A stretch of DNA of 64,000 bases from Nonomuraea longispora (GTDB lineage: Bacteria; Actinomycetota; Actinomycetes; Streptosporangiales; Streptosporangiaceae), in the NCBI RefSeq assembly GCF_004348345.1, contig NZ_SMJZ01000001.1, positions 1 to 64,000 on the forward strand. The letters run 5' to 3'. The translations under genes and the position numbers were made by a program. The notes below the pieces were generated by a model. That model was given only the letters and a program-made list of their open reading frames with translations, did not search any database and was not told where the DNA came from. Below are positions 2,891 to 7,356 of the stretch, piece after piece. Positions within the stretch are counted from its first letter, which is position 1. Every line of letters starts with the position of its first letter.

Positions 2891-4027
2891 TCAGGTCGGC
2901 AGGTCCCACTGAAGGTTGTCGCGGCCGCTCGCGTCCAGTGACACCCACTGCCGCTCGGGTGTCACGGTCAGCATGAAGGCCGATTGGTGGGGTTTCCCTG
3001 TGTCGAGCCACGCCGTGAGGGCCTGCTCCGCGTCATCCCACAGGCGGACCGGCCCGTGCTGGTGGACAAGCCAGCGGCCGGTGTCGGCGGGCCTGACGTC
3101 GGCGTGGGAGCCGCTGCCGGGGTCGTCCAGTGTCAGCACGTTCCCGGCCCAAGCATGTTGCGCTTGCGGGACGGCGAGCTGGGCCACGAAAAGAGCCTCG
3201 TCGTCATTCAGCAGGGACGGATCCACACGCGTGTAGCTGACGTCCCCGACGCCGAGCTCGACGGTGTCCAGGGGTGGAGCGGCGTGCGGCCTGGCCGGCA
3301 TGAAGTACACGTTGTGGGTCAGGAACCGCCCGGCCGCGGTGCCGTCCTCCGCCACCTGGAGGTGCGCGAACGCAGCCCCGCCGGTCCAGCCGAGCATCGG
3401 CGTGGTGATCGTCCCTCCCGGGCGGACCTGCTCAACCCATGCGCGCGGGATCGTCCGGACGGCGCAGGTGGCGATCAGTCGGTCGTAGGGGGCGTTGCGG
3501 GGGTGACCGTTCAGCCCGTCGCCCTCGATGAGCGTGGGCAGGTAGCCGGCGATCGTGAGCGCCGTCTTCGCCCGGTCGGCGACCACTGCGTCGCACTCGA
3601 GGGAGGTGATGGCGCTGGCGCCGAGCCGGTGGCACATGAGCGCCGTGGAGTAGCCGGTGCCGGTGCCGACCTCCAGCACCTTGTCACCCTCGGAGATCTC
3701 GGAAGCCTCCAGCATCCGCACGACGAGGCTGGGCAGGGTAGACGACGACGTCGGCCGTTTTATGGGCACGGGCCCGGGCGCGGCGTCCTCAGCCATGACG
3801 CCGGCGACCTGGGTCACCCACGTTGTGTCGGCGTAGACGAGGGTCAGCCACTCCGTCCGGGTCATCTCCGACCGGCAGATGGGCGTCCACCCCTCGGCGT
3901 CGTCACGGTAGAGGGCGTCGCCGACGAACAGTTCGCGCGGCACCGCCTCGACCGTTCTCCTCCAGCCAGCGGATCCGCCGATGGTGGCAGCGAGGTCAGC
4001 GCGCAGTTTCGCGGCCAGGTCGTTCAT
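2891..4027 (-). CDS. tgmC: RiPP-maturing O-methyltransferase, isoaspartate-methyltransferase homologue (TgmC type)
   Basis: 378 residues. Start ATG 4027 overlaps the stop of the ATP-grasp gene (ATGA), so translation is coupled. An N-terminal helical part is followed by TSSSTLPS (93-100), the family's substrate-side loop, and the SAM motif LEVGTGTGYS (118-127). Protein-L-isoaspartate methyltransferases are about 210 residues; the extra ~170 C-terminal residues are typical of RiPP-associated versions (the methyltransferase of the ATP-grasp peptide maturase system). In characterised relatives, the fuscimiditide and amycolimiditide clusters, this enzyme methylates an Asp of the cyclised peptide, which closes to an aspartimide. 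That role is inferred here from family and context. Confidence 0.85.
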   Translation of the reverse strand: MNDLAAKLRADLAATIGGSAGWRRTVEAVPRELFVGDALYRDDAEGWTPICRSEMTRTEWLTLVYADTTWVTQVAGVMAEDAAPGPVPIKRPTSSSTLPSLVVRMLEASEISEGDKVLEVGTGTGYSTALMCHRLGASAITSLECDAVVADRAKTALTIAGYLPTLIEGDGLNGHPRNAPYDRLIATCAVRTIPRAWVEQVRPGGTITTPMLGWTGGAAFAHLQVAEDGTAAGRFLTHNVYFMPARPHAAPPLDTVELGVGDVSYTRVDPSLLNDDEALFVAQLAVPQAQHAWAGNVLTLDDPGSGSHADVRPADTGRWLVHQHGPVRLWDDAEQALTAWLDTGKPHQSAFMLTVTPERQWVSLDASGRDNLQWDLPT

Positions 4028-5001
4028 CCGGCCCATCCTTCCAGGAGAGCGTCTGCGAAAGCGGAAGCGATCGTGTCGGAGTCGGGCAGCCATCCCCACT
4101 GCCCGTTCGGGTTGCACTCGACGAACGTCCATCGGCGACCGGTCGGGGATTCCTGGAGGGCGAAGTCGAAACAGCCGAAGACCAGCCCGAACGTGTCGAG
4201 GTAGCGGCGGGCCGCAATTTGGATGTCCAGTGGTACCTGGACGGTAGTGTGGTTGAGTTTCGCCCAGTCGGAGGAGCGCCAGTCGAGCGCGCCGTCCGGT
4301 GTGGTGATCTCGTGTGCGAATACCCGGTTGGCGACCACGGTCACGCGGGCGTCGCTCGTCTTGGGGATCTCAGCCTGGAACAGGTGGGCGGTGATGGCCA
4401 GCGATTCGTCCACGTCGGCCGGGTCGATGCGCTGCGTCCAGATCGCCGCCACCTCGCCGCCCGGCACCGAGGGGACACCGCGCAGCGACTTGTAGACGAT
4501 GGGGCCATGCTCGGCAGCGAACGCGCGGACCGCGTCGGGTTCGTTGGTGATCAGCGTGGCGGACACGTCGAACCCGGCGTCGACGGCGGCCTGGAGCTGG
4601 GCCGGCTTCACCTCTGCCCGCTCGTTCGCGGTGGGGTGGTTGACGTACCGGCGGGCGGGCAGGGACGCTAGCAGCCCTTTCAGGCCGTGCCTGGCCTCGG
4701 CCATGGCGAACTCCCGCGCCTGCGGCTCCAAGCCGTTGAAGCGCCACAGCGACGGGCGGCGGTGGTAGATCGAGCGCACATCGTCGAGGGCGATGTGCCG
4801 GCTCAGCGTGCGCAGCTGGCCCGCCCAGCGGCCCGGCTGGCCGGCCCCGATCTGGGCGGTGAGCACCAGATCGGGGCCGATGTCAGCGGGATCCACCCGG
4901 GCAACCCTCGCGCCCCGCTCGTTCAGCTGGGTGATGACCAGGTTGGCAGTGACGTCTTCCTCGCATGTGATCACCAGGACGGTGCCCGGGGAGGCTCTCA
5001 C
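4024..5001 (-). CDS. tgmB: ATP-grasp RiPP ligase (graspetide maturase, TgmB/SAV_5884 type)
   Basis: 325 residues from GTG 5001, 4 bases after the precursor stop, with GAAGGA upstream. The N-terminal pre-ATP-grasp part has VLVITCEEDVTANLV and the segment SIYHRRPSLWRFN that these maturases share. The central lobe has PIVYKSLRG (ATP-binding Lys), and the C-terminus has FVECNPNGQW (about 293-302), the Mg/ATP-binding Glu-x-Asn of the grasp fold. Enzymes of this family form ester or amide links between Thr/Ser/Lys and Asp/Glu side chains of the precursor. Adjacency to a matching precursor and methyltransferase makes the assignment strong. Confidence 0.9.
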   Translation of the reverse strand: MRASPGTVLVITCEEDVTANLVITQLNERGARVARVDPADIGPDLVLTAQIGAGQPGRWAGQLRTLSRHIALDDVRSIYHRRPSLWRFNGLEPQAREFAMAEARHGLKGLLASLPARRYVNHPTANERAEVKPAQLQAAVDAGFDVSATLITNEPDAVRAFAAEHGPIVYKSLRGVPSVPGGEVAAIWTQRIDPADVDESLAITAHLFQAEIPKTSDARVTVVANRVFAHEITTPDGALDWRSSDWAKLNHTTVQVPLDIQIAARRYLDTFGLVFGCFDFALQESPTGRRWTFVECNPNGQWGWLPDSDTIASAFADALLEGWAG

Positions 5002-5005
5002 AGCT

Positions 5006-5272
5006 CTAGTCCTTCTCGATGTCGTTGGGTGAGTCGTCGGCCACTTGCGGCGCGTTCTTCCCGCCGTCGTGCGGGCGGGACATCGACACGGTCGCAAAGG
5101 ACCTGCTGGTCCCGCCGGCCGTGATGTCGACCGGGTGCCCGTGCTCGTCGAGGAACACGGTCACCTGAGTGACGGGGTCAAGCCAAGTCTCAACCCACGG
5201 CAGAGGCTCCTCCGGCAGGTGCGGTGTCGCGCGGGTCAAGCCCCATGGCTTTGAGGGTGACAGGGTCGTCAT
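5006..5272 (-). CDS. tgmA: ATP-grasp-modified RiPP precursor peptide (TgmA type)
   Basis: 88 residues. ATG 5272 is chosen because GGAGG lies 8 bases upstream; an upstream in-frame ATG at 5317, overlapping the preceding gene as ATGA, would add 15 residues. The leader has KPWGLTRATPHL and LDPVTQVTVFLDEHGHPVD, close to the family's conserved leader pattern (LDPxTQxxxxxDxxGxP). The core has a hydroxyl-rich arm, TSRSFATVSMS (55-65), a loop RPHDGGKNAPQ containing Asp69-Gly70, and an acidic arm DDSPNDIEKD (79-88). That is the layout expected for a hairpin with Ser/Thr-to-Asp/Glu ester staples and an aspartimide at the loop Asp-Gly. Confidence 0.88.
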   Translation of the reverse strand: MTTLSPSKPWGLTRATPHLPEEPLPWVETWLDPVTQVTVFLDEHGHPVDITAGGTSRSFATVSMSRPHDGGKNAPQVADDSPNDIEKD

Positions 5273-5313
5273 CTTGATACCTCCGTTGTGGGTGGATGGG
5301 TGGGTGGTGCTGG

Positions 5314-5556
5314 TCATGTGGCCAGCGAGGACCCCGACGTCCGTCGACTACAGACGTGTGCCTCCGCTAGGGCGCGCCACGCCTGGGCAGCCCGGCCATA
5401 GATCCCTCGGCTGGTCTCCTCATAGGCGCTGTTCTTGGTCCAGCGCAGGACGAAGTATTCGCCGCCCTCTGAGGCCAGCTCGTATTCGCCGCAGCAGGAT
5501 GTTTCGTGGATGCGGAGGCGTGAGCCTCGCGGGGTGTGCGATTCCCAGGTGTGCAT
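5314..5556 (-). CDS. Small hypothetical protein upstream of the RiPP precursor
   Basis: 80 residues from ATG 5556 (MHTWESHTPRGSRLRIHET), with a CC pair, then GEYELASEGGEYFVLRW and YGRAAQAWRALAEAH. Its stop overlaps the alternative upstream start of the precursor (ATGA at 5317-5314), so it is in the same transcription unit. The alternating pattern suggests a short beta-rich domain with a C-terminal helix. No family was recognised. It could be a pathway accessory or a remnant of the XRE-associated small genes common in actinomycetes. Confidence 0.6.
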   Translation of the reverse strand: MHTWESHTPRGSRLRIHETSCCGEYELASEGGEYFVLRWTKNSAYEETSRGIYGRAAQAWRALAEAHVCSRRTSGSSLAT

Positions 5557-5632
5557 GGTGGTCACTTCCGGTGGCGCGGCGGCGGGACCGGTCGAATGGA
5601 TACACCACCGCCGCGCCGGCTCTCTGGTGGAA

Positions 5633-5675
5633 CCCCCGGCCCGCCGCGCCGCACCTGACAGCGGCGGGCCGGGGG
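5633..5675. terminator. 15-bp perfect GC-rich hairpin within the RiPP transcript leader
   Basis: CCCCCGGCCCGCCGC and GCGGCGGGCCGGGGG pair perfectly around a 13-base loop. It lies between the frameshifted gene (5676-5998) and the small gene at 5314-5556, read leftwards. There is no T-run, so it may be a pause/attenuation stem or a terminator that isolates the RiPP genes from upstream transcription. Confidence 0.5.
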
Positions 5676-5998
5676 CTAATAGGACCGGGCGTACAGTGTG
5701 CAGCAGTGCGGTCTGCCAGCCCAGGGTGGCGGCGAGCGCGATCGCGTCCTCCCGCCGGATCGTCCGCGAGACTCCGGCCGCCACCAACTCCGGCGTGACC
5801 GGCTGGCGCAGTTCGGCGATCCACCAGAGCACCCCCGATGGGTCGCCCTGGTGGCCGATGTCCCACGTCGGGTAGGTGTTGCGCAGCACGGACAGTTGGT
5901 GTCCCCGCTAGTCGAGGCAGGAGCGCCGCCTGCGCCACGACACGGCGGGCGTTCTGGTCGGCGGCTTCAACGAGGGCGTGTGGCTCGGCGTACGTCAT
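5676..5998 (-). pseudogene. Frameshifted small gene between the XRE regulator and the RiPP operon
   Basis: ATG 5998 starts MTYAEPHALVEAADQNARRV and continues to LPRLAG. Protein-like sequence then resumes in another frame (LRNTYPTWDIGHQGD, WWIAELRQPVTPELVAAG, RREDAIALAATLGWQTALL). A shift of one base near 5890-5910 would join the halves into a ~105-residue protein. In a third frame a TAG at 5678-5676 falls exactly before the hairpin, suggesting a second lesion near the end. The second frame reads on through the hairpin into the next gene. A sequencing error could also explain the shift. Confidence 0.5.
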
Positions 5999-6079
5999 CG
6001 GGTGTCTCCGAGTGCTGTCGCTGGTCGAGGTGACGCGGTTACGGTGAAGCATGTTCCGGGTGACGCTCGTCACACGAGG

Positions 6080-6107
6080 GGTTGCCTGGACGGGGCAACA
6101 GGCAACC
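6080..6107. promoter_or_regulatory. Inverted repeat GGTTGCCTG-N10-CAGGCAACC ahead of the XRE gene
   Basis: Perfect 9-base arms sit 13 bases upstream of the ATG at 6121, with a third GGCAACC half-site at 6114-6120 and a GGCAAC at 6094-6099. Four clustered half-sites next to a regulator and facing the RiPP operon suggest an operator for the XRE protein itself, probably autoregulatory. Confidence 0.55.
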
Positions 6108-6120
6108 GTGAGAGGCAACC

Positions 6121-7356
6121 ATGGCCTTTGGGGAGCAGCTGCGACACTGGCGCGAGCGGCGCAAGGTGTCGCTGTCGGTACTCGCGCAGGCCACCCACTA
6201 CTCCAAGGGCTACCTGAGCCGAGTTGAGCGGCGGCAACGCAGTCCGGAACGGCTGCTCGCCGAGCTCGCCGATGACGTCCTCGGAGCCGACGGAAGGCTC
6301 ATCGAATCGTGGGTGAGCGAATTCGGGCCGCAGCCTATGCTGGGGGCAAGCGCAGGGGGTGAGGCAACGAAACGGCGCACGTTCCTCAAGAGCGCGAGCA
6401 CGGCGCTGGTCACGGGCGGCCTGGCCGAGCTGGACCGAAACACCGATGCGGTCGCGCGATTGCGTGATGCGCTCATCCCGAACGCTCCCGCCGAGTCGGC
6501 CGGGATGGCGTTGCCGAAGTTCTCTCGTGCCGTGACCCGGGCGCGCCGAGACTTCACCGCGGCCCGGTACGCGGGCCTGGCCGACGATCTCGCCGAGCTG
6601 ATCCCCATTGCCCGCGCCGCCACCGAACCGGCCGGGCAGACGCTGGCCGCCCAGGTGTACCACCTTGCCGCCCGGACCCTCATCAAGCTGTCCGCCCCGC
6701 CATACGCTTGGGTGGCCGCCCATCAGGGCGAGCAGGCAGCCACCGCCAGCGCCGACCTGAGGGCGATCGCCGAGGCCCGCCGGAATATGGTCAGCCTGTT
6801 CCACCGCGCCGCCGACTACGGCAAGGCCCGCGACCTCACCGCCCGCGCCGCCGACATGTTGCGGACGCAGCTGGCAGGCGCGGCGCCTCAGGCGTGGGGC
6901 GCGTACGGGGCGCTCATGTCCACCGGCGCCATCGCGGCCGCGCGGATGGAGGACCGGCACAGCGCGCTCGCCATGCTGGAGGAGGCGACGGACGCGGCGG
7001 CCAAGGCCCCCGCGCTGGTGCTTTCGGCCGGCCACGTGGTCACGTATCGGATCGGAGTGTCCATCGTGCTCGGGGACGCCGGGATGGCGATCGAACACGC
7101 CCGTAGCATCTCGCCCGACGACATCCCGACGGTGGAGCGGCGGGCCTCGTACTACACGGGCGTGGCTGAGGCGTACACGCTGTGGGGAAAGACCGATCGG
7201 GCGGTTCGCGCGCTGCTCGTCGCGGAGAAGATCGCGCCCGCCGAGGTGCGGCGGTCGGGCCCGCGCCGGGTCATCGAGGACCTGTTGCATCAGGACCTGC
7301 ACAGCAACCTGTCAGGGCTGAGGGCGCTCGCGCGGCGTGCCTCCGTCGCTCTGTAG
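6121..7356 (+). CDS. XRE-family regulator with C-terminal TPR-like domain, divergent from the RiPP operon
   Basis: 411 residues, ATG 6121 with GAGAGG upstream. Residues 1-60 are an HTH_31-type helix-turn-helix (LSVLAQATHYSKGYLSRVE). A hydrophobic KRRTFLKSASTALVTGGLA segment around 81-99 resembles a twin-arginine-like motif but is internal. The rest is Ala-rich helical repeats (AARTLIKLSAPPYAWVAAHQ, AADYGKARDLTARAADML) typical of TPR domains in actinobacterial XRE proteins. Such regulators commonly neighbour tgm-type RiPP clusters. The dense inverted repeats before its start are the likely binding sites. Confidence 0.8.
   Translation: MAFGEQLRHWRERRKVSLSVLAQATHYSKGYLSRVERRQRSPERLLAELADDVLGADGRLIESWVSEFGPQPMLGASAGGEATKRRTFLKSASTALVTGGLAELDRNTDAVARLRDALIPNAPAESAGMALPKFSRAVTRARRDFTAARYAGLADDLAELIPIARAATEPAGQTLAAQVYHLAARTLIKLSAPPYAWVAAHQGEQAATASADLRAIAEARRNMVSLFHRAADYGKARDLTARAADMLRTQLAGAAPQAWGAYGALMSTGAIAAARMEDRHSALAMLEEATDAAAKAPALVLSAGHVVTYRIGVSIVLGDAGMAIEHARSISPDDIPTVERRASYYTGVAEAYTLWGKTDRAVRALLVAEKIAPAEVRRSGPRRVIEDLLHQDLHSNLSGLRALARRASVAL

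Follow-up and report, generated by a model that had tools for sequence, protein, structure and literature searches.

What does the three-gene operon at the left end of a 64,000-nucleotide stretch of Nonomuraea longispora DNA (contig NZ_SMJZ01000001.1, positions 1 to 64,000; hereafter the window) make? An earlier note, written from the letters of this DNA, had described a precursor, an ATP-grasp ligase and an isoaspartate methyltransferase lying in that order with 4-bp spacing and an ATGA overlap, and had assigned them to the aspartimide-type graspetides, a class of ribosomally synthesized and post-translationally modified peptides (RiPPs). The layout proved exact: the three genes are tightly packed on the minus strand, with a 4-nucleotide gap between precursor and ligase (5002-5005), while the stop codon of the ligase (TGA) and the start codon of the methyltransferase (ATG) share the ATGA at 4024-4027. 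The 88-residue start of the precursor was preferred to a 103-residue open reading frame (ORF) because of the GGAGG located upstream of it (Table 1). The three genes very likely form a biosynthetic operon for a group 13 graspetide (graspimiditide), and the graspimiditide class and the roles of the enzymes, judged from family membership and homology, seem hardly in doubt.

The three products were compared with NCBIfam models TIGR04186, TIGR04187 and TIGR04188, and since all three curated cut-offs were exceeded, the arrangement cannot be attributed to chance. The family search proposed in the earlier note placed the 88-residue precursor in TIGR04186 (GRASP_targ), together with PF14408 (Actino_peptide) and a PWGL leader motif; the ligase belongs to the SAV_5884 subfamily of ATP-grasp maturases (TIGR04187), and its D279 and ECNP.GQW are invariant in 10 aligned ligases. 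The methyltransferase is a RiPP-type homologue of protein isoaspartate methyltransferase (PIMT): Pfam identifies its catalytic domain as PIMT, an extra C-terminal domain carries a WXXXGXP motif of the kind described in PMC13001092, and its AlphaFold model, with a predicted local distance difference test score of 91.8, has PDB entry 1dl5 as best match, C-terminal part included. The motif is not universal, as 59 of 118 related methyltransferases lack the pattern, the ten of these that were listed being Streptomyces by record title. Moreover, the alignment of relatives displays Ser/Thr donors, then an Asp-bearing loop, then Asp acceptors in the precursor. As family models, methyltransferase fold, conserved residues and precursor alignment all agree, the class named earlier is supported, and fuscimiditide and amycolimiditide were rightly cited as relatives. 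An imiditide or type I pamtide, in which a PIMT homologue acts on a linear, otherwise unmodified precursor, was rejected because an ATP-grasp gene lies between precursor and methyltransferase and the precursor is GRASP_targ; in addition, scores for the microviridin ligases MvdC/MvdD (TIGR04185, 142.7 bits; TIGR04184, 129.8 bits) fall far under the cut-offs of 425 and 475.

The core GTSRSFATVSMSRPHDGGKNAPQVADDSPNDIEKD, which comprises the last 35 residues of the precursor, aligns gap-free with the common Streptomyces core GTSRTTGTASVSGGGDG...DDSTTDYESD. Predicted donors are T55, S58, T61, S63 and S65, predicted acceptors are D79, D80, D84 and D88, and the predicted aspartimide site, Asp69, lies in the intervening loop. 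PWGL is probably the counterpart of RPFG, the recognition motif of the fuscimiditide leader (PMC13003496). By homology with ThfB/AmdB and ThfM/AmdM/SsfM (PMC12291112, PMC13003496, PMC13001092, PMC10787088), the leader would recruit the ligase, probably through PWGL, and the ligase would phosphorylate core Asp side chains, which would then be attacked by Ser/Thr hydroxyls to give nested omega-esters and a stem-loop. After cross-linking, the S-adenosylmethionine (SAM)-dependent methyltransferase would methylate Asp69 in the loop, and the methyl ester would close spontaneously to an aspartimide, with possible hydrolysis to isoAsp/Asp. No function for leader removal or export, and no biological role, can be recognised in the three-gene operon. 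A look-up of solved structures returned no graspetide for the precursor, with weak matches only (from E 0.24), and no match for the core of a Streptomyces relative.

As for distribution, ligase loci from other genomes were taken as the best 80 of 389 matches; searches with the window's own proteins gave a precursor in 71 of these 80 loci and a methyltransferase in 79. The same type of search gave a precursor match in 9 of 54 Nonomuraea genomes, and among 297 genomes of the family, 73 gave a TIGR04186 precursor (both counts include the own genome, which has one such precursor). L010 (same-genus genome G023) and L025 (N. jabiensis) share one and the same precursor. The latter locus is the nearest relative found, with identities of 68% (precursor), 74% (ligase) and 75% (methyltransferase) and a common SRPHDG loop, but its core differs from GTSRSFATVSMSRPHDGGKNAPQVADDSPNDIEKD at 11 of 35 positions; we know of no reported product for this cluster. 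Five further distinct cores carry the RPHDG loop (L025, L026, L027, L038 and L046), all of them Nonomuraea by record title. The statement that the precursor has a core of its own held, in that GTSRSFATVSMSRPHDGGKNAPQVADDSPNDIEKD had no match in the literature searched, although that scope took in neither supplements nor the principal genome-mining articles, which may well list the cluster; only one review turned up there on graspetides in Nonomuraea. The further suggestion of a new member stands as regards the core, whereas such novelty is common, with 962 to 1,432 group 13 clusters, also put at over 1,300, already predicted and four products characterised (PMC13001092). The cluster by itself is ordinary. 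Its product is very probably a small, ring-shaped peptide with ester cross-links and a single altered aspartate, a so far uncharacterised member of a well-described family.

We then focused on the proposed aspartimide site, counting Asp-Gly anywhere in the last 32 residues, rather than at an aligned position, for precursors with a profile score of at least 50. Of 100 distinct cores, 94 come from loci with a methyltransferase; 92 of these contain Asp-Gly, the others having Asp-Ala (L028) and Asp-Ser (L107). The six cores whose locus lacks a methyltransferase include four that keep Asp-Gly, and these were set aside, a decision made after viewing them: in L109 and L116 the ligase match is partial (1-111 and 1-252 of 312 profile positions), while L108 and L153 are close to the end of a contig. 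What is left is two N. cavernae clusters with a full-length ligase, ample flank and no methyltransferase nearby, both without the loop Asp-Gly and both from one genome: in L105 (also L042) the loop has no Asp, and in L106 the Asp stands two places further on, preceding Lys. Two TIGR04188 enzymes are encoded elsewhere in N. cavernae and may act in trans. Ten rows scoring below 50, all with ligase and methyltransferase in the locus, were omitted from this count; six of them lack Asp-Gly in the last 32 residues (L090, L142, L155, L160, L164 and L180), of which L090 and L180 look by eye like wrong frames. In the same N. cavernae genome (G008), where L105 and L106 are precursor-ligase pairs, L107 pairs a precursor with a methyltransferase and shows no ligase in the 12 kb retrieved, and the L106 and L107 cores are related; perhaps the three form a split system working in trans.

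For the esters, the arrangement we favour, albeit tentatively and at somewhat less than even confidence, is a nested ladder of four (S65-D79, S63-D80, T61-D84 and T55-D88) enclosing a 13-residue loop. Position sums of these pairs are nearly constant (143-145), as in a hairpin, and those of the fuscimiditide esters 3-22 and 7-18 are similarly constant (PMC12291112). The count behind the ladder started from 118 distinct cores and used 70 of the DD type, the window's own core not being among the 70; another five DD-type entries had no pattern-found donor strand (second L081 frame, L100/L156, L106, L160 and L164), the other 43 cores are not DD type, and L109 was mis-registered. The S65-D79 spacing is 13 residues in 55 of the 70, and Ser/Thr occupies position 55 in all 57 cores with D88, compared with 2 of the 13 without it, a co-occurrence that is suggestive of pairing. 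In eight cores, positions 61, 63 and 65 are the only donors, and six of these have three tail Asp. L105 of N. cavernae retains only T63, S65, D79 and D80 of the nine positions. The inside-out cross-linking reported for amycolimiditide (PMC13003496) is consistent with the ladder as well.

Several observations weigh against this arrangement of esters, loop and aspartimide. The divergent cores L142, L155, L160 and L164 have a methyltransferase and no Asp-Gly; residues other than Gly, including Arg and Ser, are described as possible after the methylated Asp (PMC13001092). The predicted loop of 13 residues exceeds the 10-12 given for graspimiditides (PMC12291112). D88 changes four times on the best tree, two pairs falling on starred branches, and with so few independent changes the sign test for T55/D88 has no power and the covariation is not independent, while the constancy of S63/S65 and D79/D80 is circular because the search pattern required those four positions. 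Simple counting of donors and acceptors is broken by the remaining two of the eight cores mentioned above, which have four tail Asp, as well as by L027, L038 and L046, which keep Ser/Thr at 58 and have four donors for three Asp; moreover, L176 keeps D84 without Ser/Thr at 61, which breaks the T61-D84 pairing. An alternative register (S63-D79, T61-D80, S58-D84, T55-D88) is possible and likewise geometrically even. The same operon and class could also yield five esters, all five core donors being used and the C-terminal carboxylate or E86 serving as fifth acceptor for S58. Besides the donor count itself and the three surplus-donor cores just mentioned, this possible fifth ester would account for Ser/Thr at 58 in 50 of the 57 relatives with D88, and an acceptor of this kind is postulated for SsfA, which shows five esters although its last 12 residues hold just four Asp and lack Glu (PMC10787088). 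Nevertheless, in the other 7 of the 57, which keep all four Asp, position 58 is A, E, I, P, Q or R, so S58 looks dispensable, and we regard a five-ester product as rather unlikely. The calculated monoisotopic mass of the full-length precursor is 9565.67 Da before modification, 9493.63 Da with four esters, 9475.62 Da with four esters and the aspartimide, and 9457.61 Da with five esters and the aspartimide; five esters alone would have the same mass as four with the aspartimide.

That the operon is intact in sequence while its ligase or methyltransferase is silent or inactive, leaving no mature product, appears improbable: the patchy presence in the genus, decayed-looking copies in G046 and G274 (partial ligase matches, no adjoining methyltransferase) and apparent mobile-element remnants adjoining the operon would fit such a fate, but the ORFs are full-length, the conserved residues are intact, and pN/pS for the three genes, calculated against four Nonomuraea relatives, is 0.35-0.61, well below 1, meaning fewer nonsynonymous than synonymous changes. 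It is less credible still that the methyltransferase is an ordinary protein-repair PIMT placed by chance beside a graspetide pair; its catalytic domain is indeed that of PIMT, but the TIGR04188 score above cut-off, the C-terminal extension, WXXXGXP, the ATGA coupling and the absence of loop Asp-Gly from the two methyltransferase-free clusters all speak against it. Returning to the ladder, the pieces can be joined into a broader picture, which as a whole is less likely than not: a four- or five-rung ladder with a loop longer than in characterised graspimiditides, within an RPHDG subgroup of Nonomuraea, in a lineage that would trim its ladder from the outer end, mirroring inside-out cross-linking, and would lose the methyltransferase together with the loop Asp, L105 of N. 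cavernae being the end point with two rungs and no aspartimide.

Table 1. Features of the operon and its surroundings, in window coordinates
Feature	Coordinates	Strand	Basis
PIMT-like O-methyltransferase, isoaspartate type, 378 aa	2891..4027	minus	TIGR04188 401.1 bits (cut-off 380)
WXXXGXP motif WLDTGKP, methyltransferase residues 340-346, extra C-terminal part	2990..3010	minus	pattern match
SAM-binding motif EVGTGTG, methyltransferase residues 119-125	3653..3673	minus	G121, G123 and G125 unchanged across 20 aligned sequences
Graspetide synthetase (ATP-grasp ligase) of 325 aa, start codon GTG (4999-5001)	4024..5001	minus	TIGR04187 361.6 bits (cut-off 350)
Precursor peptide gene, 88 aa plus stop (ATG 5270-5272, TAG 5006-5008)	5006..5272	minus	TIGR04186 49.1 bits (cut-off 25), PF14408 38.1 (cut-off 25)
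Provisional core region, precursor residues 54-88	5009..5113	minus	relatives' alignment
Predicted aspartimide site Asp69, followed by Gly70, in loop	5066..5068	minus	Asp-Gly kept in relatives
PWGL leader motif, precursor residues 9-12	5237..5248	minus	sequence
GGAGG, likely precursor ribosome-binding site	5280..5284	minus	read from sequence
XRE-type regulator gene, divergent	6121..7356	plus	PF13560 46.6 bits, no DUF5753 match

Relatives of the ten flanking ORFs were found in the fetched loci for only two, with three matches each. The divergent XRE-type gene is a possible regulator of the cluster, by analogy with the XRE/DUF397 pairs reported near some group 13 graspetides (PMC13097080). Upstream of the precursor, the ORF at 5314-5889 has no Pfam match; its C-terminal half resembles an ORF adjoining another PCMT gene of this genome (L004). 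In N. maritima (L027), the ORF immediately preceding the precursor gene likewise resembles the ORF at 5314-5889. On the other side of the operon, the region 902-2200 contains a tRNA-Arg(ACG) gene (902-975), followed by a putative integrase C-terminal fragment (1022-1282, minus) and a putative transposase tail (1847-2146, plus; no Pfam match), both labelled by eye from their translations. The operon may lie beside a former integration site; in a search within the window, the tRNA-Arg end region (880-1060) gave no 13-base repeat.

Elsewhere in the same genome, L208 (C454:31500-41000, about 3700-7045) encodes a second ATP-grasp ligase scoring below the TIGR04187 cut-off (253.9 bits), preceded by a small ORF that has a leader-like motif (SPFGL) and Cys at its end, and followed by Clp-like protease, MauE-like and thioredoxin-like ORFs (labels by eye); possibly this is a different RiPP cluster. 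At least five other PCMT-type proteins (L001-L005, open frames of 392-513 codons) are also encoded, and some may belong to other RiPP systems.

One of the closest characterised graspimiditides is fuscimiditide from Thermobifida fusca, where a precursor, an ATP-grasp enzyme and a PIMT homologue (ThfA/ThfB/ThfM) likewise give a stem-loop that is held by Thr-Asp esters and carries an Asp in its loop, the acceptor strand DVEKD resembling DIEKD here (PMC12291112). Fuscimiditide has two esters and a 10-residue loop, whereas the prediction here is for four acceptor Asp and a longer loop, and the leader motif of ThfA, compared by partial sequence, is RPFG instead of PWGL. Amycolimiditide from Amycolatopsis cihanbeyliensis, compared by description, has four nested esters and a loop aspartimide, as predicted here, in a 29-residue product with a 10-residue loop (PMC12291112, PMC13003496). 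SsfA(BM) from Streptomyces sp. F-3, also compared by description, is a 35-residue C-terminal fragment (63-97) with four Asp in the last 12 residues and methylation at Asp-Gly; unlike here, that last stretch has no Glu, and 16 residues separate the modified Asp from the C-terminus, against a predicted 19 (PMC10787088). Albusimiditide from Streptomyces albidoflavus J1074, known here by name alone, is the fourth characterised member (PMC13001092). The native protease is reported as undetermined for every graspimiditide (PMC12291112), and the role of the Asp modification is described as largely unknown (PMC10787088). A core with a differing loop, close relatives one or two rungs apart and one relative without loop Asp and methyltransferase constitute a natural series, suited to probing the contributions of the aspartimide and of the individual esters.
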